Below, piece by piece: positions 1,184 to 56,053 of a stretch of DNA of 64,000 bases. Each line of letters starts with the position of its first letter. The stretch's first letter is position 1. Where the stretch lies: the NCBI GenBank assembly GCA_031763025.1, contig JASSKH010000016.1:4402001-4466000 (forward strand). Reading direction: 5' to 3'. The position numbers were made by a program, and so were the translations under genes. The stretch is from Macrocystis pyrifera. Lineage: Eukaryota; Sar; Phaeophyceae; Laminariales; Laminariaceae. The notes under the pieces were generated by a model that was given only the letters and a program-made list of their open reading frames with translations, was not told the origin of the DNA and searched no databases.

Positions 1184-3690
1184 GTATCTCGCTGGGCGCG
1201 CGTGCTACGAGGTGAAGGATGCGGACGACCCTCTGAAGCAGGTCGAGGTCCCCGCCGACAGCGTCATCCGGCTCAGGGAAGGGGGACAAGGCTTCGCGAA
1301 AGGAGACAACGTGAGTGGTTACCACCGCCAGACGCGTTCCACATACGATCGGGGTACAGTAGAGGTCCCTCTATAGTGCCGGTTAAGCACCGTAATAAAG
1401 AGCATTGATCAAGCACAGGGGTAATGCGATATTTTTTTAGCGCTCGTTTTTTTTTCTCGACAACGGTAAGAGTGCTAAAGTCGGATATTTTGGCAAAACC
1501 TTCCGGTTCTGGAAGATATATAAGCGCTGAAAAACAATCGCATTGCCCCTGCTGTGCGACGTCAACGCTCTTTGCGGCAGTCCCGGCTGCCCGCTACGTA
1601 TACGTGGTGCCGGTGAACGCGCTTCGCGCAGATGGGCTTAGCCAATGTGTGCAGAGTGCGGAGTAGCAGTGCCGGTTGCAGCTATTGTGTCGGTATGTTG
1701 GCTAGCGCACACAGGCACTGTAAAGGCACGACTCCTTTTGTTTTCCTTCCATCCCATTCATGTTTTTTTTTTTTTTTTTGTCTAATCATCACTTTTACTT
1801 TCCAGCCTAACTCGTAGGAGGTTTTTTCCCTCAGCGATCTTCTGGACAGACAAGCCGTGGTCACAGGTGTCGTCCCTTCTCCCCCCCGGTACGTGCCTTT
1901 ATTTTTTGTCGCGCATAGGGTTCAGCATTCCCACTGCTCGTCGATTTTCATCGAATGTACAGCTAACTCACGCTCTCGCGCTTTCCGCTGATCTTTATGT
2001 TTTGCAAGAAAAAGTCCCTACGAGCGTGCACTCGGTGAGACTTGAACCCACGAAATTGATCTTGATAGGCACGCGGACCACCTACCAAGCCACCGGGGAC
2101 GCCGGTTGATATTCGCCCTTGTCCAGATTATCTCTCCCTCATGGTAATAGTCGTAACTCAGATCCGGGGTTATACAGCAGGCGTTTCTCTCCCCCCTCCC
2201 CACGACGGTTAATGCCTCCATTAAGGCCCTTTCTTCCCTGGTCGATTCGCGTCGATAAACAAGTACCTGGTATGTATTATGGCACTTTTTGGCCGACACA
2301 CATCCCACCAATGGGGGCTTCTCATCTGCGGAACAAACTAGCCAATAGGGCTGGCTGCCTTGTAAGGCACATATGCGTGCCTTGAGAAGGCACGACTTCT
2401 TGTTCGTTTTTACTATATATACCTTAGGGGCACTGAGTTCGCATCAAATAGGGATAATGCGATCGTGTCTCAGCGCTTGGTTTTTTCCAGAACTAAGGGA
2501 AGGTTTCTATAATAATACCGAACACGGGAGGCGTTTTCGGAAAGATCTATCTGGCCGAGAGCCTTCCGAAAATATAACGTTCGACTTCAGTAGCACCCTT
2601 TGCTGTTGCGGGGGATCATGGTAAATAGGACCAAATACTGTTAGTAAAAATAGGGAATATATATAGGTTTTTGTGTGTACCGTAGGTCCTGTTTACTATG
2701 GTCCCCCGTACCAATGTTGAGAAAACAAGCGCTGAAAGAAACGATCGCACCCCTATGTATGTACGGGAAGTCAACGCTCCTTAAGGGATTTGCCGTCTTA
2801 TTACGGGGGACCAGAGTAAATAGGACCAAAAAATTGTCAGTAAAAATGAGGAAATATATAGTTTTTTGTGTGTACCGTAGGTCCTATTTACTATGGTCCC
2901 CCGTAGATAGTTATAAACCTATTTCGTCTCGCCGAATTCAGATACCTGGTATATATATATATATTTATTTTCCTTCTTATATATAGATTCACTCAGTACT
3001 TATTTTCTCACCTTGTGTACCAGGTATATAGGCTCATCAGGTTGAATGAGATTTTTTTTTTTTTTTTTTTTTTTTACGGAAGTTTTTTTGGGTGAGATTA
3101 CAGAGCTCCTTTAGAACCGCAGTCCCGAAAAAAAAAAAAAAACTCCTGAGTAATTCTGTCTCCAAAATGGAACTGCTGTCCTGAAAGGGTTTCGTAAAGT
3201 CTTTTAGTACTGCACTCTACATCAAACGTAATTGTTACTCTGATTCCGTGTATTTTTTTTTGTCCCCACAACTAGAGTGCTGTCTTAAGCGGGTTGAGTT
3301 GAGTGACAAAGGAGCCTCAGATTATTTTTTTTTTCCAGGTGCATCCACCCCCCTGTACCATCGTAACAGTCGTCGTCACCGGGAGTTGTTTTCTGTGTGC
3401 GATGCACCACAGGTGAACACTCTCTATATATCCAAACCCCATCCTCACCCTCCCACCCCCCATCCCCTCCACGAAATAATGCCGAGCAGGTTTTGGCAGT
3501 TTTTTTTTCCGGACACGACGAGTTTCTACCGGGGCACGATCAGCAAACAGCCGGTTCGCAAAGCGGGCCTTGTTTCTGAGGTGGGTTTATAGTGTTTTGT
3601 GAAGCATGCATGCGTTGGGGTGGGGGAGGGGGGGTAGGGGGTGAATTGACGTGACCCCCTTCCCCTCTCGCAGCCATGCATGGCATGAGT

Positions 3691-3752
<62 letters not shown>

Positions 3753-6345: not shown

Positions 6346-6389
<44 letters not shown>

Positions 6390-9802: not shown

Positions 9803-10030
9803 CGGCAGACAGATCCCTGATCTGTACCAGGTATGATCTACTGCTGCAGCTTACTTTGCCGAGTGGGAGCCTTATAATCTACCTGCATGATGTAGCACGT
9901 GTTTTTGGGTTTGATCTGTACTGTACAAATCCTGCACAACATCTTGTAACGGCAGCTTAGGATCTGTAGATGATCTATCTGTAGACCGATCGTGATCTAT
10001 CTTGATCTGTCCGACGTGCAATATTCCATA
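9803..10030 (-). mobile_element. GATC-rich ~250-bp MITE-like family, copy 1
   Basis: Ends rich in GATCTGTAGATGATC, with a GATCTGTCCGACGTG right end. Carries a 7-bp insert (CCAGGTA) at 9,827-9,833 that is absent at the same place in the copy at 52,765. Confidence 0.6.
9825..9833. repeat. TA-CCAGG-TA scar, with a known empty site
   Basis: CTGATCTGTA-CCAGGTA-TGATCTA here against CTGATCTGTATGATCTA in the sister repeat at 52,844. The difference is exactly CCAGG plus one extra TA. Confidence 0.7.
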
Positions 10031-11700: not shown

Positions 11701-11914
11701 ATACCAGGTAAGTACGGATTATTTTGTTTCGTGAAACCTTTTTTTAATGATATACATCTGAGCACATGGGCCAGGCTGTATCAAAACTTCCTATTAATAC
11801 GTGCGGACATAAAATACGAAGCTAACGTTGAGGTGTCCCGCCCTTTTCTGCTTATGCCTTGGACGATAGACCTATCAATAGACTAATGCCCCTACAGCAG
11901 AGCCACGAAGTTGT

Positions 11915-17905: not shown

Positions 17906-20509
17906 ATAGACTATTGAAGCAGTAATTATATATCTATCCCACTCAGCAAGCATGTACCAGAGTAGACGAGTGAAACGGTAGAGGTCGTATAGGTAGGGCA
18001 CATCTTGAGAAAAAATGGTTCAGACTGCCGGGGGCTTGGGACTTCGGAGGGAATAATTAACTATAAATTAATAATAATACTTGTAAAATTCGGTAAAAAT
18101 GGAATATAGACGAGACGTATCACGCAGCTTGCAAAGTTGAGTATCAAACTACTTAATCAGTCGAACTCACAGCTGACGTATTTCAAAATTTAAAAAAATA
18201 AATATTGTGGCGGTTTCAGAAATAGTCACGCGCACACTGCTGCTGCTGTATGATTGGCAGTTGACACGAAATGGTTTCCGAGTTACAATGCAAGGGATCG
18301 TATAGCATGGGCGCAGCATGACCCCTACACCTACCCCTACCCCTAACCCTACCACTGCTGCTGGGCGCTCACGCTGCTCCTAGATGGTTCAATGTGGTTG
18401 ATAGCATCAAAGATACCCAACCACATTGTTTGGTCGCTACCTCGGAGTTCCAAATGGATAATCCCAGAATTCAGTACCACCACAGACAGGCATCGTTTAA
18501 AAATATGTTTTAAAAAATATCGTTTGTTTTTCTTCCGAATTTTTCGTTCTATACACCTCTGCGAGTACAGTATGCAAAACTCGACTTTTCGTCGGGTTAA
18601 ATATACCCGAGGGTATAAGCGTACGTTTTTTCTGGTCAAAGTTCGTTTTTCGAGCGAGTTGTTGTGGAGATTCTCCAGCGAGGAGCCTCAGAAAATGTTG
18701 CAACAACAACAGATAGATGCACCCCTATATGTATGGTAGAATGCTTCCAGCAGTGGATGCAAAGAAGAATCGTGTCGCACAGAGCAATACAGATCCCGCC
18801 CAGAAAAACGTTTCGCCTGGTATCTGCTGTAGATCCTACCACATACAGATCCCATCGGGCGAAAAACCCGATCGAGATCGTGCAGATCATACCAGGTATG
18901 AATCAGATATCTATATATTATTATTATGCTTGCCTTCCGACAATATAGCGTAGATGCCGTTCCTATATAAACGAAATATCCTTCCGTAAATATATCCAAC
19001 AATTTTGATAAAATCAACATATTTCACATCCCACACTAAAATCAAGTCATTTTCTACCCCCTATGCTGAAGTCAAGTAATTCTCAGACCCACCCTTAAAT
19101 CCAGTTATCCATGTCGTGATTGGAATATCGTACTGAAAGCAAGTAAAGATGTGAACAACTTCCAGATAGATGTGGTTTTCATGTATGTCGTGATTAGCAC
19201 CACTGCTGAACACGACACGACATACGTTGCCGAGCTGTTCCCTAGGTGCAACCTTGATACATGTATGGTGATGAGGGAGGTGGTGGTCTGTGCTAGAATT
19301 GAGGTGTATGACTTTCTTTACGGATCGGACGGACGGACGAACGGATTCTTTTGGAGTTCTGGGAACAGACAACCGCGCGGCCTTAATTTACACGTGTAGC
19401 CAACACATGTCGCGATCAGCATTTCATACTTGAACCCAGGTGAAGATAACTTCTTCGTATCATCTGCGTAAAATGTTTTCATCTCGACTCGCACCACGAA
19501 ATCAGAGGAGGGGTGGGGGGAGAGAGGGAAGATGGGCCACTAGAAAGAAGGAGAGGGTGCGCAACGAGAAGGCGCGAGTGACCAGCAGCTCGTCGTAGAG
19601 TTTGGACGCGTGTCCGTGATCACCGACGGTCTTTTGGGTGAGACCTCGAGAGTTATGCTCGTCTCGTGGTAGAATTGAAAACGACGATACCGTACCCGCG
19701 TGCTAGACGCAAGAGAAGGGAAGCACAGCACAACGTAACACAGGCGGCGCCAAACGCTGAAACTTGGCGAGCATGGGTAGCATGATGAGCAATGGCCAAC
19801 GGCTAGGTGGTGGCGTCGTAAGGTGTTCGTCACGCGGCGTTTTTTTGGGGGGGTCGGAGGTTCGGCTTGTGAGTGCAAAAGCGGACACGTCGCACACGCG
19901 CTTTCCGAAGATCGGCGTGAGAAGCCATTAGACGCAGAGCTTCTAGAGGAATACAGTTTACCTCTCAGAGAAGAGTCAACGATATGCGTCGACCCGCTGC
20001 TCCCAGTGTACTGCTTAAAAGTGTGAACTGCGTCTTAAGCTTGGATGCTCGCACGATGAGCTCACCACGGAAATTGAACTAACGTTTCATCTGGTAGGTA
20101 CTAAGGCCGCCGAGAATCTCCCAGGAATATGTTGCATATAATCCCTCTTTAATATTTGCCAAATACAGACACACACTCTTGAATTCTGCAGCTTCAGATT
20201 TTGTCTTCCTCTTATACGGAATGTATGTCATGCATGAGGCCACATAAAACCCGTAGAACGCGCGATCGAAGTATCACACACAGCTCGCAAATATGAGTTT
20301 CGGCGAAATCCTCGATCTCACAGCTGTTATTTTGTCAGCTTTACAAAATAAAATCCCTCTTGACCGCAAGTGACATGTTGATAATTTTATTTTATGCGCC
20401 TGGTAGCTTATACATTACCAGGAGTACGCTATCATATTAGATGTATTCGAGCCCTCGCCGCAAGTTCTACACACGTATTCACACACGCCTGCCCCTCTCT
20501 CGCGCCTCG
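17906..20509. other. Spacer without recognisable genes
   Basis: AT-richer DNA. Two related short segments with TCGTGATTGG/TCGTGATTAG lie at 19,105-19,200, with a weaker one at 19,405. A 68-codon frame at 19,823 has no support. Confidence 0.5.
18230..18465 (-). repeat. Dispersed repeat, copy 1
   Basis: Diverged relative of 51,285-51,490: both carry ATCAACCA(CATTGAA)CCATCTAGGAGC, then AGCG..AGCGCCCAGCA, CATG(C/T)TGCG and CCTTGCAT..TGTAACTCGG. Also contains a short CCTACCCCTAACCC stretch. Confidence 0.6.
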
Positions 20510-21942: not shown

Positions 21943-23903
21943 TCACCCTTCCTGCCCGAAGTCCTCGGTCCACTTGATGAAGCGCGTGAGCTCATCAGCG
22001 GAAACGGAACTTCCGGATTTTGTGAGGGCCTTAATGAAGTCGTCGTAGCACACGTCCGGCACCAGTAGCTTCTCCGTCGGCACCTGGCAAAAAGGGTCAG
22101 GCAAGGCAGGGCAAGGCAAGGCAAGGCAAGGCAAGGTCAGGTAAGGCACCACCAACACTATCACCGACACCAACAATAGCACCAACACCAACACCACCCC
22201 GCCCATCCACCGTCACCACCACCACCACCCCCTCGCTAAACACCAACACAGGCACCCCCCCCGCCACCACTACTACCAACGTCAACACCACCACAATCCC
22301 CCACTCCTCTACCACTACCCCCTCCAACCACCCCACTACCGCCGCCACCACCACCACCGCGACCCTCCCTCCCGGCCACCTCGCCCCCCCCCAAAAAAAA
22401 ATAACACCAACACCACCATCAACACTACCATCGCCACCGCCACAACCATCACCACCACCGCCGCCACCACCACCACCACCAACATCATCCCAACACCACC
22501 ACCCCGCCACCCCCCCCCTCCAAACACCACCACCATTCACCGCTCCCGCACCTCATACAGCGTCATCCTTATGGCCTTGCACGTAGGGCACATGTCGTTC
22601 GGCTTGGCCGGGTTGGTGGTAAGGTCCGGTGGGCAGTAACGGCAGTTAGGGTACTTTTCTGCCGGCGTCAGCATTCCCGCCGCATCGGGCATAAATTGCT
22701 TCATTATTTAGGGACATACACGCACAAGCGCGGAGGGGGAAGAGGAGGCGGGGGGGGGGGTGGTTCAGGATACAGAGAAGTATACCGGGCAGTGCGGGGG
22801 GGGGGGGAGCTGCACTCATGTCATGCATGGCCGTAGTCGTACGGGTACAAACCCTCGCATCCCCGCAATGCCGGGAGGGCGGGTGTACTCATGCCTCATG
22901 CCATGCATCGGGGCGGGGGGGGGGGGGGGGCAGTAGCGGGGGAAGGGAAGGAGGGAGTTACAGAGATAAGTACATCCCTGGCAGGAGGAAGGGGGGGGGG
23001 GGTTCCCATCGTCATGCAAGGCCGCAGTCGCATGACCATAGACCCTCGCATCCCTACAGTGCCGGGATGGAGCACGTCGGCGACCAGGCAGATTTTGCTT
23101 GCACCAAGCGCGAAGGGCCACTACGTGTTCGCATGAAGGGTGGGCTGCATCCCACTAAGAAGCGCTTGTGGGGAGGACTTTGGTACCTTGTGCGTACTCT
23201 CTTGCATACGGATGACAGCAAGAATTGATTGGGTTTGTTTTCCGGTGTTGCCACTTCCAGAGACAGCAATGAGCATGACATGAAACTGCCTCGTGGGTGC
23301 CATACCGTGTACACACTACAAGGTACCAGGTACGTGATACGATAACCCCCATCTTACAGAGTTAAGGGGCAGATAAAAAAGAATAATAGGGTGGGAGAGG
23401 GAGAGGGGTGGGTCAGAACACATACGTATTGATAAGAGTCTGTCTCTCCATCTCGTTTTTCCAGCTCCCATATTAGTTAACTTTCGTCTGAGATAACGGT
23501 GACTATATAATTTCGCCTCGTCTGAGTACACCTGTGTACCGCCCGGCTCCTTCCATCCCATCCAATCCCCCACCCCCACCCCGCCCCACCCCATCCATCT
23601 CACCAAATCTCACCCCACGCCATCCTATCATATCCCCATCCAATCCTACCCCATCACATCCCATCCCATTTCATCCCGTCCCGTCCCATCCAATTCCACC
23701 CCATCCCATACCATCTCATACCATCCCCACTCCATCTCGTCGCATGCGGCGGTCAATACAGTGGTCAATTCGGTACTGTGCATACCTTCGCCTGCTGACA
23801 TTTCCGAAGAGGTTCCATGAGCGCCTCGCGCGTGATCACCGAAATGTCCGAACCCGAGCACCCGTCCGCTTGCTCCCCGAGCAAGTTGAAGTCCTGCAGC
23901 GCC

Positions 23904-23944
<41 letters not shown>

Positions 23945-25869
23945 CCACAGCAGAAGCAGCAGCAGCAACAACAAGAGTAGCAGAAGCAGTAGTAGTAGCA
24001 GTAGCAGCAGCAGCAGCAACAACAGTGGAAGCAGCAGCAGTAGCAGCAGCAGAAGTAAGAGCAGCAGCAGCAGCATCCGCGGGAATAGAGACCGGGGTAG
24101 GAGCAGAAAGGGATAAAAAAAGACAAGAAGAGGCCAAAGACAAACAGGAGAGAGGGAAAAAACGTTCAAATATAAACGTATCTACTGTACGTACTATCAT
24201 GTCTACTCCGAATAGTTAGTCCACAATTGTCGTACAATACCTGATATTCGATACCGGTATACCAGGTACCTGGTATACATTTGGTTACAGTATTAATGTC
24301 AATACGAACTTTCAATACCTGGCAGTTACGAGCGTATTTTGCGCCTGTGAATACACCCTAAGATAGACAACTAGGTGACCACGAGCTAGATACAGTGGTG
24401 TACCAGTCAGTACCAGTACTTTTTTAAGTCCACCCCGTGACAATCCAAGAACGTGATCTTATCTCTAATACGGTCTGACCTTTGACTACTGAAAAAATGA
24501 TGCTGTAATAATTCCAAGTAGTTTTTTTTTTTCTCGGGACAGGTCGATGCACCCGGTCCCATCTCTACTACCTGGTATGGCCTTGTCCCGGATGGTCTTG
24601 AGATGGGCAAATCAATGTAGTTGCAATGGGCGAGTCTGAGCACATAACAACCACCACACTACCGATACAACACCAACCAACATTACCCCCCCACCACCAC
24701 CACCAACACTACCAGCACCAGCATCAGCACCAACACCAGCACCACCACCACCAACACTAACACCAACACCAACACCAACACCGACACAAACTCTCCGAGA
24801 CCCACCTCGTCGTCGAGAGTGTTGGCGGTGTCTCCCAGATGAAGCTTGAACATGATCGAACGCGCGTCCGGCTCCGGCAGCGGAATGTAGATTCGCTTCT
24901 CGAAACGACGCCGCATGGCCGGGTCCAACTCCCACGGCACGTTCGTAGCCCCTGACATTATCATTATTAATATTACGGGGGATCATAGTAAATAGGACCA
25001 AAATTTGTGGGTACAAGTAGGTAAATATATAGGTTTTTGTGTTTACCGTAGGTCCTATTTACTATGGCCCCCCGTAATAGTATATTAGTTATTGTTGTCA
25101 TTATTATTACTATTTTTGTTGTTTGCTGCGATTGTGGTTACGGTTGTTATTACCGTCAAATCACAATATTATCATCATCATTGTGTTTGTTATTGCTATA
25201 AAAGTAACTCGCATTTAAGCGCATACAGACACGCACATACACCCGTATACAATCACCCGTGCGCATGCACACACATATCATGCACGCACATCCACGCGTA
25301 TATTCTAAATGAGCTAACACCCCGCATCACCCCAATCTCCCCCCTTTCTCTCCCCCCTCCGTCTCGAAAGGGATTCGTGGTCATCAATGGTCAAATGATA
25401 AGGGCAAGCTACAGGTGAGTACGCCATCTCCCACCCCCCGCCCCCACCTTCCCCCAGCCCCTAGCAAATGAGCAACAGAACCGCCCCTTACCAAGCTCCC
25501 CCCACCCGCTCCTCCCTCCCAACCCCCGCCCCGCCCCTTTTTTCTCCAACCACCTGGAGCAAAAAAACATCAACACAATCACGCCTCTTACCAAGGACGA
25601 GAATGCCATCGTGGGTGTTCCCCACCCCCTGCATCTGCACCAGAAACTCCGTCTTGATTCTTCGGGCCGAGTCGTTCTCCCCCTCGGAGCGGCTGCCGCA
25701 CATCGAGTCCACTTCGTCAATGAAAATAATGGACCGCTCGTGCTCGCGCGCCAGCTCGAAAAGGTTCCGCACGAGCTTCTCTGACTCCCCCTGCCACTTG
25801 CTCACCTATCGTAGTAGCAAGGACAAACGGGAGGGGAAAGGGGTTGGTTGTCATCGTCGAGAGAGAAGT

Positions 25870-30800: not shown

Positions 30801-32478
30801 AAGATACGCTGTATTTACACAAAATAAAATTGGGGGGGTACAAAACACTAGTAAAAGAAAGGACGGAGAGAAGGGAAGGAATAGCGGTAAGAAAAAAGGT
30901 GAAATAGGAGCACTCAGAGACATGCGGGGGGTCAAGATAAGAGATAGGAATGGAAACGTATTTGCACGGCCCAACGTTTCTGCTGCCGGCCAGAGGTACT
31001 ATTTTCGTTATATTAGTTTGTGGTTTATTTCGCGCGAGCTGGGGCTCACCCTGCGCCCCCGCCGGTCCCCATGCCGTTCTTCGCCGCCGCCTGCTCGTCC
31101 ACTATCTGCTTCAACGTTTCCGCTCGCTTCATGTACCCGTCCACCCGCTTCATGATCGTCGCCTTCGCCATCTGACAACACCATATCATATGCCATAGTC
31201 ATCGATATCGGACGATAATCGAGTTCGATACGATATCGATACATTAATTAAAAAATAAAGCGTCGTGATGGATATCGAGCGAGAATCGCGTTCGATATGA
31301 TATCGACAAATACGTGGTAAAAAAAAGCGTTCGATACGACATCGATATCTATATATTTCAAAGCGTCGATACGATCATCGCTGCCTTCGCCATCTGATAA
31401 CGCCATATCATAGATCAAAGTCATGAATATCGGGCGTTATTAATAATAGAGTTCGATACGATATCGATACAGGAAAAATCAACTCATCGTGATGGATATC
31501 GGAACGAGAAGCAGTTTCGATACGATCGATGATATATCACCACTTCAGTGAAGATGAAGATGAAGACGAGACCGAAAACGAATCAAATGAAGGCGAACGC
31601 CGCGTTCGCCTATTATTACGGGGGGGCATAGTAAATAGGACCTACAATAGTACACACAAAAACCTACATATTTCCTTATTTTTACTCACAATAGTTGGTC
31701 CTAGTTACTATGGTCCCCCCTAAAAATAGGACGCAACTTGTTGTGTTCGTACCAGGTATCAAGTACGTCAGTTACTGGTACGAGCTACACACCAGGTACG
31801 AGTACGTACATACAGCTGTAGTATAGGAGTGCTGATGTGGCAACGGGTAACCAAACAACAAAAGCCAAGAACCAAGAACCTCACGTTTTTACAGTCAAAA
31901 TGTATACTGGTAGTCCAAACTATTATTATTACGGGGGTCCATAGTTAACAGGACCTATGGTATACATAAAAACCTATATATTTACCTAGTTTTATTAAGA
32001 ATATTTGGTCCTATTTACTACGGTCCCCCGAAATAATAGTAACTATTAATACTCGTACAGACATCTAGTTTTATACTGGTACCTACAGCAGCAGCAGCAG
32101 CAGCAGCAGTTAGTTGCTGTAACTGTCTGCTCTGCACCTGAAGGTTTGGAAAGCGTTGGAAAAATGAAATATCGAAGTTCTGCGTTTTGGGCACGTTCTC
32201 GGGGCGGCAAAGCTCCTTTGGGAAACTCCGCATGATTCTTGCAGCCTGCAGCAGCAGGTCGTTGACATTGCATTGAACAGGACACAAGCATTGAATACGA
32301 TACGATAAAAGAGTGCTTGCGGTATCATATAGGATTACCATCAACAGCAGGAAGTCCATTCGTTGAGTGATCATAAACACGACGGATGAAACACATATGA
32401 GAATGACGTGTCAGACACGCCTTGCGGCTGAGGAGCTCGAGGAACGCAAGAAGCCGCACTCAGCGCCTCCGCCGCCAA

Positions 32479-32900: not shown

Positions 32901-33923
32901 GATACTTTCCTTCCCTCCTTACCACGCAACGTTTTTCAACTTCGCGGAATTCGTCGGCAAATTAACGCAGCAGAGCGCGTGCACATCCACGCGCGAGCCT
33001 TGGTAGTCCTGTGTTCGCGGCTGGCTGAGAAGTACAAAGCAAGAAAGAAAAAGAAACCTCAAACACAGCGACAGTGCTCGTGGTTTTACGACTGAGTACA
33101 AACGAGATTTGGGCGAAATGACGAGAAACGCCACTGAAGAATATCGAAACCCTTTTTTGTGAAACCGAATTTTGCGGCGGAAATATCTCCGGTGCGGCGC
33201 GCTATCATCGCCAATTGATCATCGCATCGTATCATAGTATCCTACCAGGTACATGCTCATCCTGTTCACACAGCTACTCGGGCTAGGAGAGAGCTCCGCA
33301 TGGAGATAACTGAGCTTGACTCTGCACAGGGTAAGTACAGTTTTGGAGTACGAGGTATGAAAGATGTGGCGAATTTTGAATATGACAGGAAAACATGGGC
33401 GCTTGCATGTACCTGGTATGCATTATGCATGCATCTTCCACACGAATCGAAGATATATGCGCACACGCGCACACGACTTAGGCGCATATCATACAAGTTG
33501 TACACCAGAGACTATTGGTGGAGCTAGAGAAACAAGGAGTGCGACAAACTGAACAATGCGTCACTCCATCCTGTCGTTGTTGACGCTTCGATACCGTCGC
33601 GTCCACTACTCGTATGTTGGCCGTTGACGACACCGGCATCAAGATATACAGACACGTGCAAATTAAAGAAACAAAATAACCGTAGAACAACTACATTACC
33701 GACAGTAACCGTACATGTCATATCCCTACGAGTATATTTCGCATATACGACGGTTTGGTACAAACATGACGCTCAGTTTCGTATACGTAATACTGTGTTT
33801 GACTCGTCTTCCACGCCTTTTTGTCTTAGACTCTCACCTTCAACTCCTCCCTACTCCGTCGCGCGAACGCTAGCGGCGAGGTGGATATGGGAGTCGCTTT
33901 GGTCCGTCCGACGTCACGCACGA
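32901..33923. promoter_or_regulatory. Divergent intergenic region between VPS4 and the B-box gene
   Basis: About 1 kb separates the two opposite start codons and must hold both promoters. No TATA box or initiator could be assigned with confidence. It contains two TACCWGGTA motifs (33,243 and 33,410). Confidence 0.5.
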
Positions 33924-36900: not shown

Positions 36901-39900
36901 CGGCTAGCGTGGGATCTAGATCACGATTTAGTTCAGGATCTGATCTAGATCATGATTTAGATCATGATTTAGATCGTGATATATCCGGTGTGTCCAACGT
37001 TTTGCGCGTTCCGTCTACAGTCAGGAAGTCCGCAGCACCACGAATTAAAACAGAACCTTACGCTAAGCGGCACTGAACCAGTCCTCGTTAAACGCGATCC
37101 GATTCGACGTCCAACCCTCCCCCCCTTTCACACCGTCTGCTCTGGGGCAACAACAGCGTGTCCCGATGTCGACTTATTTTCGCAACTTATCGTCTTTTCG
37201 CAGGTTTCTGTGTGTCAGTCGTGCTACGACGTCTACCGACGACTGGATAAGCTGCGAGACGATAGTACCCGTGGCGGTGTTCGAGGATCGGGCGGAATCG
37301 ACGCTCTTGCGATGGTCGCGAGCGGGAGGCGCGCGGCCGCCGTAGAGATCGGCGCGGCAACGCTGAACGCAGAGGTGACAGCGATGCTGCGGGACGTGCA
37401 CGCAAGAACAGGGAAGTCGGGAAACGACGCAAGTATAATCTGGCGAAGGCGGTTAAGGTATGAAATTACCAAGGCTCTCACGAGTCATGATTGGACCTAC
37501 GGGTTGGGTCAGGATTTTTTTGTATCTCACGGGTCGGGTCGGGTCGCGTCGACTCGGGTCGACTCGGGTCAAGTCAGGAGGTTTTCGAACTCTCACGGGT
37601 CGGGTCTGGTCGGGTCACCCTTACCCGACCCGACTCGACCCGAACTGACTCGCGAGGCTTGACCCGACTCGTGAACAGCGCCAACGACAGTGACTGCACT
37701 ATATGTTGGAACATTATCATAGCTAAATAACCTGCCCTTGCACACAAGCACTCGTAGTGTACGTAGCCCGCACACAAACACGGATTAGCACGGCAACAGT
37801 ACAGGGCACGTGGCAGCACTTAGTAAAACTCGGAAGTCAGAAACTTTCACACGTTGGACATATCACGATCTATCTGATCTGCCTATAGTAGATCATCTAG
37901 ATCCTATATAGATTACCTGCCGCTATGAGTCGCTGTGCAGGAGATGCATAGTACAGCTCCAATCCGGGAATGATGCCCTGGATCATGCAGACTATTCGGC
38001 TCCCACCCCGCAAGATGGGCTAGACTATACAGATCATGCGGGTCAGTCCGCCCTGTATCTATAGATCATGAAGTGGAGATCGGTGACCTTGTCCAAATGT
38101 CGTGGAAACTTTGGCTCGGCTTTTGCAAGGAACGTACTTGCAAGAGAATCTCTTCTTCAAATGTTGGGGTTAGTGCAGGGCGCACCCTCCCCCAAAATAT
38201 GAAATGTTAACAAACGCAGGAATGAACACGAGTCTGGCCCATAACAAGAGTTTTTTGAGTGGTATCGAGCACTATAAACCGCTATGGACGGATATATAAG
38301 TACCGTTGGGCTACAAAGATGAGGGCCAAACGGCCCTTGCATCTCCGTCCGGACGGGAACCTGGTATCGAATACCTGACGCTTAACGTAAAAAGGGCGTT
38401 TGAGAATAACCTGGCTGGGTTGGGGTTCTTGTAGTCTGTTTCCCATATAGTAGCAATCCCAACGCATGAAAAATTAATTGTTGTGGGAAAAAGTGACCCA
38501 AAAGATGTTTCTAAATAGAAGTAATATTGGGCTGGGTAACTCTGTTCTGGGTAACTCTGTTCTATGAAGCAATATGTCTCACGTGCAAGATGACGTATGA
38601 CCTTCTCTTTGTATAGCACACCGGTGTTACTGAAGCACGAGCCCCGTATGCAAGTACGACCCCCCCCCCCAGCCCGTATGCAACGTTTCGACCCCCCCCC
38701 CCGCATGATAATGAGTACACCCCCCCCCCCCTATATTATATACCTGGTATATTATAAGTTGGGTTGGCGTCGGTTGGGGACGACGCTGTAAAAAGCGCCT
38801 CTCACTGCGTGAGCTAGACAACCAGCGTAGCCTTCTTTTTTACGGGAACGATGGCTGGCGGTCGAGTTAGATCATTTTTGTGCGGGGAGAACCCTAACTC
38901 CGTACAAGGAGGATGATCGTATCACGTAGTGTGTGTATGGTAAGGCACCCACGAGGCAGTCACATAATAAACCCATTGCTGTCTCTGGAAGTGACCGCAT
39001 CAGAAAATAGTCAAGTCATTGACGATGACGCTGTTATCCATATGCAGGAAAACCCGCCTCCGAAGCGGTTCTTAGGAGGATGCAGCTCACCCTTCATGCG
39101 ACTCGCCGAACATAACACAGCGCTTCGCGCTTGGTGCAAGCAATGTGAGCCTGGTCGGTGAAAACCCGACGTGCTCCGTGCCAGCATTGTAGGGATGCGA
39201 GGGTCTATGATAATGAGTACATCCCCCTCCCGCCGCGACCGCCGTCCCTCCGTCGTGCTCCCCAGCAAGAGCAAGAGCGGCCACGAAATCGAGTGCGCCA
39301 CGGCGCAAAGCCAGGCAATCCTTACGAATCGGCTATCCCGACCAAAACCACAGGCACAGCAGACGACTGACGAAGAGTTCGTGTGCCCTCGGATTCCCAA
39401 GAGGCGAGTGAGGAGCCAGGGCGGCACCGAGGAGTACACACATAGCCACTTCCAGCGGCGCTCGAGCGCCCCGTGCGGCTTGCCCGCGCTGATGCGCCGC
39501 GGTGGCGATCCCACGACTCGCGGCGCTCCGTGGGAACAGATGGGGCCAATCAGCCGACACAGCGAGGAGGAGGGCGTCGATATTGGCGGAGTCCTTCCTC
39601 ATGGAACGCCACGGCGGACGGCGTGGCCGTTTCATCGAAACGCCCCTGGAGATGAAACCCCTGCAGACGGTTCGGACAATGGAGTTGTCCCCCGCCGGTG
39701 CAACATCAACACGGAGCCTTCCGGCGGCGGTGGCGGTGGTGGCGACGGTGGCGGCGGTCTTAGCAGTGGCGGCGGCGGTGGCGACGGTGATGGCGGAGGT
39801 GGTGGTGGAGTTAGCGGTAGCGTCGGCGCAGACAGCGGTAGTGGTAGCGGTGGCGGCGGCGAGCCGAGCGACCGCGGGTCAAGGGCAACCATCTGCGCGA

Positions 39901-43813: not shown

Positions 43814-43899
43814 TAGTCATCGATGTTAATCCAATCAACCGAATAATTCTCAGCCATCATGTTTACTTGTTGCATGGTGTCACATAAACCACCAGCAAA

Positions 43900-44720
43900 A
43901 ATGTCAAGTTGGCGTCGCCGTATCGCTTGGGTTTCCAACGATTCCCTGTCGTTTGAGAATATAACGGTCCCCTATGGCTTGAGTTTTGACGGATCCTTGT
44001 CGCTTAGGACTTTTAAGGTCACCTACGAACTTCGTGTCGCTTAGATATCTAACGGCCCCTTACCGCCTGGATTTATGACTGTCTCATATCGCCTAATTAT
44101 CTGACAGCTTCCTATTGGTTGGAAATATAATGTTCCCCATCACTTGGATTTCTGTCGGTCCGCTATTGCTTGCAAAATCATGCCGGTTCCCTATCGCTTG
44201 GATTTCGAACGGTCCCGTATCGCTTAGATTTTGAACGGTCCCCTAGCGGCTGGATATCTAACGAACCCCTACCACTTGGATGTCTAACGAACCTTCGTCG
44301 CTTGGATCTCCAACGGTCTCCTTGCGCTTGGATATCTAGCGGTTCCCTATCGCTTGAATACCTAACGGGTTACCAGGTATTATCGTTTGGGTTCCCAGTG
44401 GTCCCCTGACGCTTCAATATCTGATGATCCCTTACGGTTTGAATATCTAACGGGCCCTTATGGCTTGGAGTTTAGGTAGCGTCCCCCTAAAGCTTGGAGA
44501 TCTAACGGGTCAATATCGCTTGGATTTTCATCGGTCCCCTATCGCTTGGATTTCTAACGGCTCTCTACGGCTTGAACTTCTAACGGTCCCCTACCGGTTG
44601 GAAGTCCACTTTTTTCTGTTCACTTCGATTTTGTGACGGCTCCTTGTCGCTTGGACTCCCAGCGTGCCCCTATCGCTTTGAATGTTAACGGCTTCCTCTC
44701 TCTAGAACTTCTGACGGTCC
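43900..44720 (+). repeat. ~33-bp satellite upstream of the SQ/TP ORF
   Basis: About 24 diverged units of CCCTATCGCTTGGATTTCTA then ACGGT. One unit carries a TACCAGGTA insert at 44,371. Confidence 0.85.
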
Positions 44721-46810: not shown

Positions 46811-46981
46811 TCGACAGGACAAAATATACCTGGTACATTTTTTACTTCCGGCTGGAGGTGGCTGTGATGCTCTTCCAAAGCCCTATAATACCTGCGTTCG
46901 AATGCTACTGCTGCTGCTGCTCGGGTCTCGCGCAGCAAATCGAACACCTCCACATCTACCAAGCATAAATGAACCGTTCCC

Positions 46982-47801: not shown

Positions 47802-49189
47802 AAGCTACTGTGCACATGGTACATGCCCGGTTTCTCTGATGCAGGGACATAGCAGGCAGTCAACACCTGCGCTTCACCCTGAGCGCCTACCGCAACGGTA
47901 TGCAAAACCCAGGACCGGAACTCCGTACGGGAGGTGGAAAAGGTGGCCGACAATACCCTCCCAACCCTCAAGATAAGCTACCCCCTGTCGTTATCCTTGC
48001 GCCCCCCCCCCTCGCCAAATATGACGGCATACACGCCACCTACTACCACCGCCACCGTAAATGCTACAGTACAGTATGGCCACGAGCAAGAAAAAAGCAG
48101 TAAGAAACTGATACTTGGCTCGTTTTTTTCGAGCCGCTTAGAAATTCGGATCAAGAATTCTCCGGGGGTCGAGAAAACTCGATCCATAAATCGTGCTCAG
48201 CAGTGGGGCACACTATATCCTACCAGGTACCTTTTTAGTAGGGGTTTTGCCAAAATCAGGTATACCTGGCCACTTTCGTGCCAAAAACAGTTACATACTG
48301 AAATCAAGTACAAAACACACACCAGGAGCCCTGCTATTGGCCAAGCTGACATTGTAACTGATTTTGGCACGAAAAGGGCAAGGTACACCTGATTTTTTAT
48401 ACTTTGTCTAGCTTTCAACTGATTTTGGCCAACTTTGAACAAATCAGAGAGGCCATACGCACACCGTGTTTTCTCTCCGTATGCGTCTGCCCTCCCTCGG
48501 TTGAAATTCTTCTGTATTGACGTATAAACTCTGTACTCGGACGTCGTACGTAAAAGTACGTATATACAATGACATGCGTGCGCTGGATTCACTTTGTTTC
48601 CTCTGGGGTGTGCAGTGTGCTTCAGTTAGTTGTTGTGTGTACTCTTTTGTTTTCTATGTTCACAGCAGTCTTCACAGCACCATGGACACTCGGCGTTTCG
48701 TCTGCACCACCCCGCGTCGAGGTGGTCTCAGGTTTGGTACGGCAAGATCATTTCGTACCGCGCAGGCGGTTCCGCGAGGACGGTCTGGAAGCTTTAAAGC
48801 TGTCAATGGGGGGGGGGCGCCAGAGTAAATACTATTGGCGCTCCCGCCGTGGCAAAACAAACGAAGCATATCCGTAGTGACTCTTTGCAGGTTGAAATGG
48901 AGCCCGTGGTACCTACACCCTGAAGGAAACAAAACACTTCAGATTTTAGAGGCCATGTGGATTTAGGCGCATTCTTTTTTTGTCGGATTGTCATGGACAT
49001 CACACCGCTCGTGGCGCGCGTTTTTTACTTGGTTTTAGCATGTACCTGATTTTGGCATTTGCCCTTTTTAGTATGTGATAGCCTACTGCTAACATAACTT
49101 CCTAGTAGAGAAAAAGCCTACTGCCATCCTGTCTTCCTAGTATACAATGACTACCTAGTCACTATGAAGCAAAAAAAACTCATGCCAGG
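47802..49189. other. Spacer with diverged short repeats
   Basis: Several copies of CTGATTTTGGC/GCCAAAATCAG in both orientations (48,240-48,440; 49,035-49,055) suggest an old inverted-repeat element. A 102-codon frame at 48,569 with a hydrophobic start has no other support. Confidence 0.45.
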
Positions 49190-49442
49190 CAGGACAGATC
49201 ATCTACAAATCAGATAGATCATCTACCGTAGATCCTAACCTGGCGCTGTGACATGTTGTGCAGGATCGGCATGGTACAGCTCCTGGCCAGAAAACACGGT
49301 GGGCTAGATTATGTTCAGACTGCACGGCCCCCACGCGGCAACACGATGAGTTACACTATATAGGCCATACAGTTCAGGAACATATCTGCCGCGAAATATC
49401 TGCCGTAGATCATGAAGTGGGGATTGGTGATCTGCCTGACCT
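49190..49442 (+). mobile_element. GATC-rich family, copy 4
   Basis: AGGACAGATCATCTACAAAT start, GTGATCTGCCTGACCTG end. The interior resembles 37,855-38,100. Confidence 0.6.
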
Positions 49443-49789
49443 GTGAAAAGGTTTCGGCCTTGAGAAGGAGAGCACGTAGGCGTTTCTTCTTGACGGACCG
49501 GGCCCCTTCTGTACAACAATACAACCCCAACCCTGGTGAAATTGAACAAAACTTGAGGGCACGTAGGCCGCAGGATCTCCGCGCAAGCAAACGCACAAAT
49601 ATTTTCGACACCTTTTGCTCCGAAAACAAAAAAAATCCACATAAGGCACCCTGAAAAGAAGCTCCAGATAAGCCCCCTGCCCTTGGGTGTCATTTTCATA
49701 GTCGGAATTACGACCAAAACACAGGAGAGAGCAAGACCAAGTCGATCAAATCCCTTCTTGAGCCGAATCCCCCTCCCTCCCCCTCGCGA

Positions 49790-50395: not shown

Positions 50396-53300
50396 TCATC
50401 CTTGCAAGTCTTCGATCTTCGAGGTGATCTCGTCCATGTTCTCCCGGAGGGCCTGCAAAAAAAAAATTGCGCGATCAAGGCAGCGGGACATGATAGGTGA
50501 GGGGGGAGCCGTTACACCTTTTTTCAGGAACCGTACCGAAGTTTTTGGGCACAAATTACGTGGAATTGGTGTGGGATACTTTTTACGCCATTAATAGCAC
50601 AGGTCAAGACACGCCCTGGTGCTACATACTCTACTAATAATCGTACAGGTGCAGTAGCGGTCCCTCTGTAGTGCCGGTTGAGTATAATAGTGCCGGCTGC
50701 ACGCTATAGTAGTGCCGGTGTAATCGCTCGGCAATACAGATGGGATTGCTGTAACCAGTGTGGTGGTGTGGTAGTGTTAGAGTGAGTAGTTATTAATAGT
50801 GCCGGCTGCCGCTATAATAGTGCCGGTATTGCTGCCTGGCGCATACATACATACATAGAGGGACCGGCACTATAGAGAGACCACTACCGTATTACAGGGG
50901 ACCATAGTAAATAGGACCTACGGTACACACAAAAAACTATATATTTCCCTATTTTTACTAACAAAATTTGGTCCCATTTACTATGGTCCCCCGCAAATAG
51001 CAGATTTTACCGCCGAAAACACACATCCAATTAAACTTCCGAGCTCAGTAGTTTCTCGCCCAAAACCATGTGCGCAGCGATAGTACCACAACGGGGTATA
51101 AAAACACCGCGCATAAAAAAAAAGGAAATAAGATAATCAGTGCACAGCGTACCATGACTCTATTGATACCAGGTAAGTGTTTTTGTTTCGTGATCGACGG
51201 AATTTTATCATACCGACGTACTACAGGTGGGTGCTGAGTGAGTTTCGGCAGACCATAATTTCCCGGCGGACGTGTTTAACCCTCTTTGGCATCAACCCCG
51301 AAGATAGCGACCAAAACAATGGTTGGTATCTATTTGGTGTTATCAACCATCTAGGAGCAGCGTCAGCGCCCAGCAATACAGTACGGGTAGGATCATGTTG
51401 CGTCCGTGCCGTACTACTCCTTGCATCGACCATTGTAACTCGGGCATCAATTTTGTCGTATCATCCCCGAACCAAGCAGTTGCCGCTTGCCGTAATCGCC
51501 ACTTTTAGTCGGCAATTTTCCCCCTATCGAGTCCCAAGAGAGTTTAGCAACGCCCACACGCCAATGGAAACCCTGTGGCGCATCCGCCATCACCTTTTTG
51601 GGGACACGACGGGCACAGACCAAGAAAAAAATCATTTCTGCTTTCACTACAATACCACATTTTCAAGAGCTGAACCCTGCGTCGGAATTCTACGGGCCGC
51701 TCTGTTCGTGGGCTGGCGTGTTGCCCTCAAGAGCCCGCCATAACCAGGGCTGTTCACGGGCCGGGCCAAACCTCACGGGCCAGGTCGAGTCGGGTAAGGA
51801 TGACCCGACCCGTGAGAGTTTGAAAACCTCCTGGCCCGACCCGATCCGACCCGTGAGAATAAAAAAACAAATACTGATCCGACGCGCGGGAAAATATTCG
51901 TATGACACGTGCGTACCTTCCACTGAACTGGGTTTAGCGAGATGCCCTTCTTTCCCGGCTTCATCTCTCCTTCGGAATTCTCGTAGTACTCTCGGATGTC
52001 GATGAGAACCATGCCCTTGAATTCGCGAACATCCACGAACTTTTTCTTGCCGAGCTGTCACAACCAAAAGGCCAAACGACGCAGAGGCGTTTAAAAAAAA
52101 AAAGGACGAAAAAACAAATAAAAAAAACGTGCAGAAAGGCGGTGAGCGTGGGATTTTACTCCGACTGCGGGTTATGGCGGGCTTTCGAGACCCTTCACCG
52201 CAACGATAACCATCGGCGATAGACACCTAGTGACGACAACAGGTGAATGTAACCTTGGACAATAACCACGGATGAGAACCGGTGATTGTAACCACGCACG
52301 ACAATCAGTGACTGGACGATAACCGGTGAAATCAACCATCGACGATAACCATGGACGATGACCGATGAGAAACACTAGCGACCATAACCCGTACGATAAC
52401 CGGTAACGGTAACCTTAGGCAAAAACCATCGACAAATAATCACCGACGAAAACCAGTGACAGAACGATCGACGCAAACACGACATAGCCGGCGGCTACAA
52501 CCATCGGCGAAAACACGATAACCAGTGACTCGAGGACAACAACCGGCGACAACCCGAGCGGCATGCGAGAAGAAGGATACACGCCACTGTTAACGTCCGT
52601 TTCGTACGCGCGAGACGTCCATCCTGAGCAGCCAACCAGACGTTTGTTCATGTTCGAACCAGCTTTGGTCACAGAAAGCGAGTAAATCCAGTGCAGACTC
52701 TTCTCGTAATGAGTCAGACTACTCTTGGAACTGGAGCATGGTGTCACGAAATGCTAACATTGCACACCTCAGGCAGATCAACTACAGATCATCTACAGAT
52801 CACTTCCATTTGATGATCTAGATCTTTCAGGGCATATAGGTCCCTGATCTGTATGATCTAGCTCACGTTGGCGGGTGGGCATACAATCTGCATGATCTAG
52901 GAAGTTTACTGGGTTTGGACATGTAACACCTGTATACAGGTCCTGGACAACATGTCCTAACGGCAGGTTAGGATCTAGATCGTGAAATCTATCTGATCTA
53001 TCCGACGTATGTAACGGTTCCACTACAATTCTCCCCTAGTATAAATAGTACGAGCAAATCGTATCAGATGAAGAAAAAAAAAGGCCTAACTGACCTCGAT
53101 CTTGTTGCTGACTCCTGAGCCATCTCCGAGTTTCTTACCAGCCTTCTTGGCCTTCTTTTTCTCCTTTGGCTTGGACTTTTCCTCTTGGCTATTTTCTGAA
53201 TCGTCGGCAGCGCCAGCAGCAGCAGGCGGGGCTTTCCACTCCTCCTCTTCCTCCCCTTCCGCAGATGACACTCCCTCCTGACAACGAGAAATCGTGTACA

Positions 53301-56053
53301 ACAGCAGTACAGGGCATCTATAACGGGGGGGGCTAATGTTGTAATCAGAACCCACCACGGACCGAAAAAAAACCATGTATCCCTCTATGTTCACACACTA
53401 AATTTGGTTCTGACTACTATGGGATAACACTTCCTGTAGAGCAAACAATATGCGAATCCCGTGCTGTTCCCCAGTACTGCTGCTGTGTAATTGTCCAGGT
53501 TGGGCAGTCGTGCGGTATGAGCTGGCACCAATTTCAGCTCCTACAATTGTGAACCATGTACCTGGTTTGTTGCAAGTCGCACGCGAGAGCAAAAAACAAG
53601 AGCACCGATTTGGTCTGGCGATGCATCACAGTTGCTTATACTTCAACTTTGTACCAGGTACCTGGTACGTAGGTATAATACGTGATTCTGCATTAATCAT
53701 GGACTTTTCACTTTCCACGGGTGTAAAATAAAATAAAAACGCTGGACAAAATACAAAGTGTGAAAACACGAGCGATTATGTATGAGAGCACGATAAAAGG
53801 GGATGGAAATAAACGTTCGGACGGAGCTGACCCGCGGCCTTCATATTTAGTTAAACCTTTGTGAGTATGACTATGATGCGTATCAATAGAGTAAGGCCGA
53901 ATCTGGTAAGAAACGAAAATCGTTCGGCGCGAATACCATTTTTTGCACCTTATCACCGATTGGGGCCCGGAAGACGTCCAATGTGGTTCAAGAATAGCGA
54001 ACGCTCCAGCATTTCTCGACGGGGCTTCGTATTACTAGATTTTCGCTTAGAAATCGGCACAGTTTAAGATTTATCCGATTTGGATCGTTTACGTTTGCGT
54101 GTTGAAATCCCAGCTACTTTCCACGGATAATACTGCTGCTGTTGGCCCTTTTCGGTACATTTTGAGGTACAAATCAGTCCAGCACCGAACAGGACCAGTC
54201 GCTCGAAAGACCTTGAACATGCTGAGGTGGATTTCGAAGCGAACAATCCTAGAAGCTCCTTGGAGGGATGCCGGACTCTTTCCACCAATCACCAACCGAT
54301 ACTCGGAGATTGATCCAAAGTCTTGCCGGCCAAAATCGGCGACAAAGAGAAAGCTGCAAAGGTTCTTAAGATGAAGATTCTAAAATTCACAGTTTCAAAA
54401 TGACAATTTTTCAACAGTATAAAATGATATATCGCCCCAATTTGTTTTCGTTTCCCTCTATTTCAGATTTTAGTAGAATTGACGGTGTTGCTTGAAGCAG
54501 TACGAGTAGGCAGTGTCATCCTTGGAGACTTGGGGGTTTCCCAGCAGTTGACGTGTTCGGTGGCCTGGCAACCCCCAGGGCTGTTCGCGGGTTACGACCT
54601 GACCCGCGGGTCGGGTCAGGAAGTGCTCAAACTTTCACGGGTAGTATCGGGTCGGGTCACGAGGAGATGAAAATCTCACGGGTCGAGTCAGGTCATGACC
54701 CGCGAGCTGTTTTCTGCTGACGAGCGGGTCGGACCCGCGCATCCGGCCGCTCATCCGATACTTCAAAAACTTCCCGCTTCCTGCCCAAACAAAGGCTGAT
54801 GTCGTACCAACTCTGAATAACACTCATTTGGTATAAAAATCTAACATTAACACACCGCCGAATGTAAATCATGGTATACGCATGTCCGCATCCATCCATA
54901 CCCACTGCGCCATAAATCACTTCTGTGGGGTGTGGGGCACAAAAATGAAGATTAACTTGCTTTGGAAGTGTCGACCCACGACCCACGGACCGGATCCGCT
55001 GGTCGAACCCGCGGGTCGAGATAAATGGTCTCGCGGGTTGAGGTGACCCGACTTGCGACAGACCCGTATCTGACGGGTCAATCGGAATCTGGCCGGTCGG
55101 GTCGTGTCGGGTCAGGAGGTGTTCGAAATCTCAGGGGTCAGGTCGGGTCGTGTCAAGAGGTTTCAAATCTGGCGGGTCGGGTCGGGTCGGGTCAGAAGGT
55201 TTTCACATCTCAAGTGTCGGGTCGGGTCAGGAGGCTTCCAAAATCTCGCGTCCGTGAGGCTTGACCGGACTCGCGAACAGCCCTGGTTAAAATCAAAATC
55301 TCCGAGAATGACGATGCGGGTGCAAGCAGTGCCACCACCAACCACGCCGTCGGCAGTTGCAGGCCCAAAACCAGCACAAGGCCGGCTCCGTCGTTGTGTT
55401 TGGTTTGTACATGCTGCAGCCATATATCTATACTGCTGTACCTGGAACTACAGCAGTACAACTATATCGTACTGTATTACTGTAGTGTAAATACCATGTA
55501 CCACGGTACCAGGTATATACGAGTATTGCTCCACTCCCCTAGGCACTTCCCGGAGGGGAACCTGGTACACGAGTACAGTACCTGTACCTTGTACCCGTAC
55601 TGCTGCTGTTCGTACTGTCTGTTGCTGTAGTCTGCTGTTGGGGTACTACGGGTTCAAGAATGAATCTGTCTTTTGGTGTCGAAGCCGATCGAAGTGCTTG
55701 TTCAAAAGTACAGCAGTAGGTTTGAAATTTATGCGAACCCCGACGCTTGCAGCGAAAAATATGGGAGGTATGGACACTCGACGTGCAGCAGGGTACGTCG
55801 AGCGTAGAAATAACAACACAGCAGTAGCGTGTTGCAGTCAGTACTCACCAGGAGAGCGTTATCCCCCATTACAATCCTGATCGCTGGTGTCGCCCTGCCC
55901 TCTGGCCACAGGGCACAGCAACCTGGATATTTACCATGCATGGCAGGATTGCTTGTCTTGCTCGATCTACTCTGTGTCTATCTTCAGTATAGCGAAAACC
56001 TTGTCGAGAACGCTGTCAGCCATGCATACCTCTTTCACTTTTCGCTTCGGCAT
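50396..56053 (-). CDS. SUB1: SUB1/PC4-like transcriptional coactivator, ssDNA-binding (complete, 4 exons)
   Basis: PC4/Sub1 binds single-stranded DNA as a dimer and assists RNA polymerase II initiation, elongation and repair. Exons on the minus strand: 56053-56030 (MPKRKVKE, eight codons), 53277-53095, 52054-51917, 50452-50396 (stop 50398-50396). All junctions are phase 0 with GT donors and CAG acceptors, giving 133 residues against about 127 in human PC4. The middle part is an acidic Ser/Glu stretch followed by a Lys-rich stretch ([17 protein letters not shown]). The PC4 fold follows: [20 protein letters not shown], then [12 protein letters not shown] and NPVQW, with a closing helix [15 protein letters not shown]. 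The PC4 signature (VR.F.G..LIDIR.Y, KPG.KGISL) is intact. The first exon is placed by phase and its K/R-rich start, so it is less certain than the rest. Introns total about 5.2 kb and hold hAT-like, GATC and other repeats. Confidence 0.9.
50652..50890. mobile_element. MITE with TAGTGCCGG ends, copy 2
   Basis: Close match to 5,138-5,385, with GCGGTCCCTCTGTAGTGCCG and CGGCACTATAGAGAGACC ends. A further end-like fragment is at 1,366-1,385. Confidence 0.65.
50892..50993. mobile_element. TA MITE, copy 12, SUB1 intron
   Basis: TTACAGGGGACCATAG to TGGTCCCCCGCAA, directly next to another MITE (50,652-50,890). Confidence 0.8.
51167..51743 (+). repeat. Dispersed repeat, copy 2, with a 188-codon ORF inside a SUB1 intron
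   Basis: The frame from 51,177 to 51,743 lacks a recognised domain and lies antisense in the SUB1 intron. Its middle is shared with 18,230-18,465, and its start (ACCAGGTAAGT, then TTTTGTTTCGTGA) with 11,702-11,735. This suggests a mobile element of unknown type rather than a host gene. Confidence 0.45.
51745..51892. mobile_element. GGGTC-rich hAT-like element, SUB1 intron
   Basis: Left end CAGGGCTGTTCACGGG; the right end has decayed. It ends about 25 bp from the donor of the PC4-domain exon. Confidence 0.55.
52190..52560 (-). repeat. ~30-bp minisatellite in a SUB1 intron
   Basis: ACCATCGACGATAACCGGTG-type units, about 11 copies, strongly diverged. Confidence 0.75.
52765..53018 (-). mobile_element. 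GATC-rich family, copy 5, SUB1 intron
   Basis: CCTCAGGCAGATCAACTACA start, CTGATCTATCCGACGTATG end. Shows the uninterrupted CTGATCTGTATGATCTA at 52,844-52,860, the empty counterpart of the insert at 9,827. Confidence 0.6.
53318..53425. mobile_element. Diverged MITE related by layout, SUB1 intron
   Basis: ACGGGGGGGGCTAATGTTG to TTCTGACTACTATGGG. The interior GAACCCACCACGGACC matches, inverted, about 5,570-5,660, so this is a separate family of similar design. Confidence 0.5.
54576..55285. mobile_element. GGGTC-rich hAT-like element, ~710 bp, SUB1 intron
   Basis: Inverted ends CAGGGCTGTTCGCGGG and CTCGCGAACAGCCCTG match over 14 bp. The CAGGG..TG ends resemble hAT elements (inference). No matching 8-bp flanks and no transposase. 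The interior may contain a second nested copy. Confidence 0.6.

Follow-up and report, generated by a model that had tools for sequence, protein, structure and literature searches.

The nine-base palindrome TACCWGGTA in the genome of Macrocystis pyrifera is very probably a footprint left behind when a cut-and-paste DNA transposon of Tc1/mariner type is excised, with MITE2, a short element described below, as the resident element with matching ends. Each scarred site would thus formerly have held an element. A transposon excision scar had been suggested in the first-pass annotation of the window (the whole 64,000-nucleotide stretch of DNA analysed here), and the suggestion is now supported by a genome-wide excess of the word, by its behaviour as an insertion at TA, and by the existence of MITE2, whose ends begin with CCA. 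The word has the composition of a footprint: TA, terminal bases and TA, the bases being CC and GG as in MITE2 plus a central A or T.

Abundance of the word and its insertion at TA

The window contains 23 exact copies of TACCWGGTA, against a mean of 0.24 and a maximum of 2 in 100 dinucleotide-preserving shuffles; a second-order Markov model gives an expectation of 0.52, i.e., the approximately 45-fold over-representation claimed by the annotation. The TA-CCTGG-TA form lies at 2264..2272, 2943..2951, 24569..24577, 32644..32652, 33410..33418, 38741..38749 and 46827..46835, and the TA-CCAGG-TA form at 3018..3026, 9825..9833, 11702..11710, 18890..18898, 30677..30685, 31750..31758, 33243..33251, 44371..44379 (within a 26-bp satellite), 48221..48229, 51167..51175 and 55507..55515. 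Two sites (24260..24275 and 53652..53667) are exact doubles, both TA-CCAGG-TA-CCTGG-TA as first described, and a third (23317..23332) is a double with a decayed left half, TA-CAAGG-TA-CCAGG-TA. Among the 23 start positions initially listed, 22 were exact, while the one given as 48231 was ten bases off, the true start being 48221. The scar at 55507 is preceded by TACCATG-TACCACGG, possibly decayed scars themselves.

The excess extends to the whole assembly (537,376,219 bases in 223 contigs), where 121,279 sites were counted as opposed to 2,421 for the reversed word, an approximately 50-fold difference. For finer counts, a 264-kb sample was used, consisting of the window plus 20 pieces of 10 kb (L016-L035) from the same scaffold (13,669,674 bases). 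There, CCWGG scars number 72 versus 2.5 expected, and TACCAGGTA ranks first in frequency among the 375 TA-N5-TA words present and, low-complexity words excluded, among all 9-mers. The scar centre is mainly A or T, the C/G-centred form being found only 8 times (2.8 expected). One-mismatch forms are in excess as well (102 versus 54.7), in line with the earlier proposal that decayed versions exist. The flanks, described earlier as mostly different, have a 13-mer in common within 40 bp in 9 pairs among the 72 sites and are otherwise essentially unrelated. It had also been claimed that none of the sites lies in an assigned exon. This stands for the six open reading frames judged most gene-like (8.8 kb), which hold 0 of the 23 sites, but two sites fall within others among the 56 stop-to-stop frames in the window, namely 32644 in a minus-strand frame of 165 amino acids and 48221 in one of 169 amino acids, both probably no genes.

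Where sister repeats allow a comparison, the scar behaves like seven bases added to a plain TA, namely CCWGG and a further TA. BLAST alignments to sister repeats spanned two of the 23 window sites, 9825 and 23324, for both of which empty sites had been claimed. When the former was realigned with 52814-52964, a 7-base gap fell at the site and another, of 8 bases, some ten bases further along; the latter shows a 14-base gap against 28606-28730 on the minus strand, corresponding to CAAGG-TA-CCAGG-TA and revealing the suspected mutated pair at 23,317 as a double scar with a decayed left half. The claim is therefore borne out against one sister each, but the second sisters are not clean. Thus, against 49253-49448 on the minus strand, the realignment of 9825 stops at TA, BLAST preferring the joined empty form (6.4e-10 versus 9.9e-7), and against 38892-39007 on the minus strand, 23324 has 12 bases in two gaps at the site and 2 more just upstream. 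At 44371, where seven extra bases had been noted in one satellite unit, the spacer is indeed 14 bases instead of 7 by eye; automatic alignment, however, did not place the gap.

Scarred and plain TA sites are also provided by MITE1, a second repeat family. A search of the 264-kb sample and seven small loci on contig C1 recovered 59 copies, 4 of which carry 5 scars between them, at several different TAs that are plain in the family consensus. These varied positions, together with the unrelated flanks, show that the word is not part of one repeat consensus. An unbiased tally of indels with exact 12-mer flanks, which was underpowered, returned no CCWGG event; no polymorphic scar was seen among near-identical C1 copies; and split MITE1 copies yielded no convincing inserted parent.

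Element ends and target preference

MITE2 was obtained by clustering TACC-starting ends in the 264-kb sample into families of three or more. It is about 83 bp long and TA-flanked, with ends CCACTYTGTCCC...GGGACARAGTGG, inverted ends CCACTYTGTCCCGAAATATAAG and terminal inverted repeats (TIRs) of about 22 bp. The ends have the TA-CCA...TGG-TA form, the terminus beginning CCACTYTGTC, and the non-autonomous element is short, non-coding, inverted-ended and multi-copy, as expected of a Tc1/mariner-type MITE. The exact 14-mer end TACCACTYTGTCCC occurs 1,145 times in the genome and the reversed pattern 7 times. The kind of element that the annotation had anticipated, bounded by TA and with CCA at the start of its inverted ends, is thus present in many copies. 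TA borders both sides in L019:2396-2478, L024:1491-1576 and L038; in several other copies it is lacking at one edge. The other TACC-starting clusters consisted of MITE1-internal words, simple repeats, small local repeats, the scars themselves and an inverted repeat with symmetry reaching past TACC. An inverted repeat of 123 bp, present at 48263-48385 and at L025:4256-4378, was rejected as a candidate parent because its symmetry extends past TACC.

An iterative matrix search for MITE2 drifted to MITE1 (from 17 to 167 pairs; 49 in the reversed control), and its counts were discarded, only the top matches being retained. The best of 5 matches in the window (3 in the reversed-window control) is a degraded 83-bp relic, AACCGCTATGGACGG...CCGTCCGGACGGGAA, at 38277..38359, which is likely, though not certain, to be a MITE2 copy. 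On the right it meets a decayed scar, AACCTGGTA, at 38358-38366. A single MITE2 copy, L030:291-373, has sister repeats that lack it; there are two of these, which are only 71-73% alike and where the join is not TA. The joined flanks of 10 MITE2 copies gave no scarred sister within the sample, and no locus was found with MITE2 in one copy and a scar in another.

MITE2 copies are diverged from one another and most scars are exact; the main donor may therefore be a younger CCA-ended relative. Longer relatives do occur, since a 3.6-kb, TA-flanked pair of MITE2-type ends lies at C135:1558090-1561680 (L038). Four of its open reading frames were compared with Pfam and matched no family above cut-off, and it is possibly a large non-autonomous relative with captured DNA.

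CCWGG scars and MITE2 have one target preference in common. Read outward, the scar flank tends to Y-N-T-N-N-T-A (N, any base), a preference derived from 71 sites, as the remaining one of the 72 was too near an end; such a symmetric pattern is expected for a transposase that selects TA sites. In the form used for the comparison, ANNANR before TA, the preference is satisfied at 31 of 144 scar flanks (21.5%), a figure that becomes 27 of 136 (19.9%) once sides bordered by an exact scar are dropped, and at 180 of 1,145 MITE2 ends (15.7%), or 148 of 1,105 (13.4%) without the ends that abut an exact scar. The background is 1,643 of 29,974 TAs (5.5%) in the 264-kb sample.

MITE1 serves as an internal control. 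It is a 105-bp palindromic element with ends TTACGGGGG...CCCCCGTAA; one of several copies in the window, TA-TTACGGGGGACC...GGTCCCCCGTAA-TA, lies at 30348-30460, and others at 2605-2717, 9437-9549, 24971-25083, 31927-32039, 43707-43819 and 50887-51013, among further ones. Its own scar would be TATTAATA (TA-TTAA-TA), which occurs at 58 sites in the 264-kb sample against 1.7 expected and, within GTA microsatellites, appears as an added TTAATA. The flanks of the TTAA scars favour G (.51), T (.55) and A (.50), unchanged when 12 of the 58 sites near MITE1 or in microsatellites are left out, and those of full-length MITE1 favour G (.50), T (.45) and A (.53), a palindromic query with which a copy may count twice. 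This G-T-A flank is not the one favoured by MITE2 and the CCWGG scars, the ANNANR form being found at 1 of 116 TTAA-scar flanks; at MITE1 ends it is found at 4 of 47, too few to place them. In end sequence as well as target preference, each of the two families thus matches a scar of its own, a pairing found after the words had been seen and not predicted. The control is weakened by the MITE1 outer border, which is not independently fixed: the ends are of the TTA/TAA kind if it is TA|TTACGG rather than TA|CGG.

Scars and MITE2 also lie side by side. A CCWGG scar abuts 40 of the 1,145 MITE2 ends (3.5%), 32 times as CCAGG and 8 times as CCTGG. For MITE1, whose exact ends number about 95,000 genome-wide when scaled from 47 ends in 264 kb, the figure is 288 of ~95,700 (0.30%, with the denominator scaled likewise), about the chance level of 0.4% obtained by scaling the sample's TA density to the genome by hand. 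The resulting odds ratio is 12 (p = 7e-28, with the estimated MITE1 denominator treated as exact). The 32:8 bias arises because CCTGGTA, read outward, agrees with the MITE2 preference at every constrained position. By the same token, adjacency alone is no proof of origin, as target preference alone would give part of it.

The join, the transposase and competing origins

Cleavage by Tc1/mariner enzymes falls precisely at the 3′ ends and 2–3 nucleotides inside the 5′ ends, as passages of one report describe (PMC2170065), and excision sites of a Stowaway-like element in yeast are repaired primarily by end joining, according to part of another (PMC4561436). In the mechanism we propose, the transposase would cut the non-transferred strand at each end 3 nucleotides into the element, so that TA-CCA 3′ overhangs remain. 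Two such overhangs would meet at a single opposed A:A, and after gap filling, resolution of the mismatch would yield CCAGG or CCTGG. For MITE1, TTA/TAA overhangs would pair over two bases to give TA-TTAA-TA. The A:A join, which the annotation had put forward as two CCA overhangs with one mismatched base, is the simplest fit to CC-W-GG, no other overlap of two CCA overhangs producing that sequence, and like reasoning gives TTAA, albeit post hoc. The join spectrum in the 264-kb sample can be set beside this model. CCWGG is found 72 times against 2.5 expected and CCATGG, the join with no overlap, 0 times against 0.3. The single-overhang CCA join is hardly enriched (46 versus 37.9); the minor joins CCGG (16 versus 4.5) and CCWG (19 versus 8.6) are mildly so. 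CCAGGG occurs 10 times against 0.8, with at least 3 of the cases in one repeat.

Over expectation, the one-mismatch forms exceed by 47 and the exact forms by 70 in the 264 kb. By a partly hand-derived calculation, the ratio of 0.68 is compatible with scars all of one age, at about 8% divergence, and equally with production at a steady rate going back to about 23%. Under the steady model, exact copies would make up about 43% of all, corresponding, by extrapolation from the 264 kb, to roughly a quarter of a million excisions.

The mariner-type transposase that the annotation had looked forward to was not found in profile searches of the assembly. PF13358 gave 0 matches; PF01359 gave 0 as well, with a profile that was also silent in the control genomes. 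The pogo-type profile PF03184 (DDE_1) gave 39 matches, 28 of them without an internal stop, none of which was tied to MITE2 ends at the two loci inspected (L036 and L037). No CCAC ends were seen in 2.4 kb at the pogo locus L036. The pogo gene at C197:412474-413028 was rejected as owner of a MITE2 end, because the end in question, at a distance of 450 bp, is part of a complete 83-bp MITE2; this is the only coincidence of pogo and MITE2 noticed among the matches listed. As a separate observation, long open frames are present in the pogo-type DDE_1 genes of L036 (C202) and L037 (C197), where what we take to be the second catalytic aspartate is apparently N or G; these genes are perhaps inactive or host-adopted.

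Several other origins of the word have to be weighed. The scars may stem from another CCA- or CCT-ended element, for example a lost autonomous parent or one of pogo type, that has MITE2's transposase or preference, MITE2 being a fellow traveller. The apparently greater age of MITE2 copies compared with most scars would fit this view, as would the 39 pogo-type DDE_1 matches (28 free of internal stops) and the existence of longer relatives such as the 3.6-kb pair at C135:1558090-1561680. Nevertheless, no other TACC-starting cluster (three or more members, 264 kb) gave a candidate element, and the sole pogo coincidence among the matches listed is a gene beside a complete 83-bp MITE2; we regard such an origin as possible but rather doubtful. 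It is improbable, in our judgment, that MITE2 merely prefers to insert beside a CCWGG palindrome that pre-existed for other reasons. Although the fit of outward CCTGGTA to the MITE2 preference would cover much of the adjacency (40 of 1,145) and of the 32:8 bias, the outer flanks of the scars show the same preference without an adjoining exact scar (27 of 136 versus 5.5%), and the word is a TA-duplicating insertion carrying the terminal bases of MITE2.

A regulatory or structural palindrome conserved by selection would explain why the word is crisp and palindromic and why 0 of the 23 sites fall in the six most gene-like frames. Yet it is found at various TAs within transposon copies and in a satellite, its neighbours are not conserved, and its one-mismatch forms are in excess (102 versus 54.7) as decay predicts, which makes selection highly implausible. 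For an artefact of assembly or sequencing, or simple composition, nothing speaks beyond the odd scale, and with the reversed word 50-fold lower, TA duplicated at insertions and a decayed population present, we give it next to no credence. The Tc1/mariner footprint hence remains our preferred reading.

Proposed re-use of scars and relation to known systems

Double scars number 5,620 genome-wide, compared with 0 for the reversed control and about 480 expected from a hand calculation based on scars per TA. Among the matches listed (50 of the 5,620; 7 on C45 and 3 on C65, so maybe not all independent), 22 are CCAGG-TA-CCTGG, 1 is CCTGG-TA-CCAGG and 27 are direct, where 20/5/25 would be expected from the 32:8 bias and 12.5/12.5/25 without it. 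The excess of doubles with a set orientation is attributable to the fit of the scar to the common target preference. Since CCTGGTA, read outward from TA, fits Y-N-T-N-N-T-A, each scar would be a good new target, and chains would follow. We thus propose, at about even confidence, that scars are self-seeding: excision would rebuild the preferred flank in CCTGGTA, donor sites would become hot spots and give rise to chains, and the genome would log some hundreds of thousands of excisions, scars apparently outnumbering resident elements. A triple scar, CCAGG-TA-CCTGG-TA-CCTGG, was noted at C24:34009-34031.

Excision scars of Tc1/mariner elements are of a known kind; their scale and the join are what is unusual here. 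As passages on Tc1, Mos1, Sleeping Beauty and ISY100 state, these elements target TA and leave terminal bases in the donor site (PMC2170065), as in kelp. Stowaway and rice Osmar likewise involve high-copy, short, TA-flanked MITEs, with a footprint of the TA duplication and a few terminal bases in the part of the source consulted (PMC4561436). The Stowaway TIR consensus, CTCCCTCCRT (PMC1925063, seen in part), departs from the kelp CCACTYTGTC, the two being partly alike after a one-base shift, and MITE2 is therefore called Stowaway-like in behaviour only. Moreover, in the excerpts at hand, Stowaway/Osmar footprints vary (1–4 bp of the TIR), whereas in kelp CCWGG dominates among about 120,000 exact copies, with doubles in the thousands. 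PIF/Harbinger elements (Tourist/mPing) are cut-and-paste MITEs too, but are described in portions of PMC4561436 as having a 3-bp target site duplication and usually precise excision; the kelp element, with a 2-bp TA duplication and a constant 5-bp scar, falls outside that group.

A comparison for the join is offered by Sleeping Beauty, where TA-CWG-TA results from the pairing of CAG overhangs around one central A:A mismatch. In kelp, the CCA overhangs would oppose only one base, A:A, and so give the longer CC-W-GG. In the 264-kb sample, TACWGTA (101 versus 40.6) and TACSGTA (74 versus 37.6) are themselves moderately enriched, possibly as scars left by CAG- and CGG-ended elements.

The brown alga Ectocarpus harbours such transposons. 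In the sections consulted of a paper on it, 17 Mariner-Tc1 families with about 12,000 copies, mostly non-autonomous, are reported, TcMar-1/2_Ec32 and TcMar-N1_Ec32 being Tc1-Mariner families of that alga; the part of the main text available to us contains no word starting with footprint or excision (PMC12477816). Literature searches returned nothing that by its title concerned kelp scars, and the titles of papers matching the motif word included none on transposons. Excision-footprint studies, as far as the portions consulted indicate, deal with small sets (PMC1925063, PMC4561436, PMC3660474). Judged by these searches, the novelty appears to lie in the scale, in the near-uniformity of the 5-bp join and, as the newest part, in the measured feed-forward between scar and target.

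In contrast to the small published sets, a single assembly here offers about 120,000 exact footprints with a decaying tail, from which the excision rate over time, the fidelity of repair junctions, target choice and the re-use of old sites become countable. Because a 7-bp insertion shifts reading frames, scars are also a source of mutations in kelp. In addition, the two MITE families suggest a rule, that the ends determine the scar, which could be put to the test in other brown algae and offers a route to inferring transposons that are extinct or rare with nothing but their scars to go by.

Other features of the window may be recorded. A helicase/Dicer-like exon lies at 56440-57285, with its best-scoring named matches in brown algae, and an open reverse-transcriptase frame (PF00078), likely of a LINE, spans 14080-15786. 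Long homopolymer runs of C or G are present, e.g., at 3690-3755 and 6346-6404, often after ATGAGTAC, and some of them lie beside D13 repeat copies.
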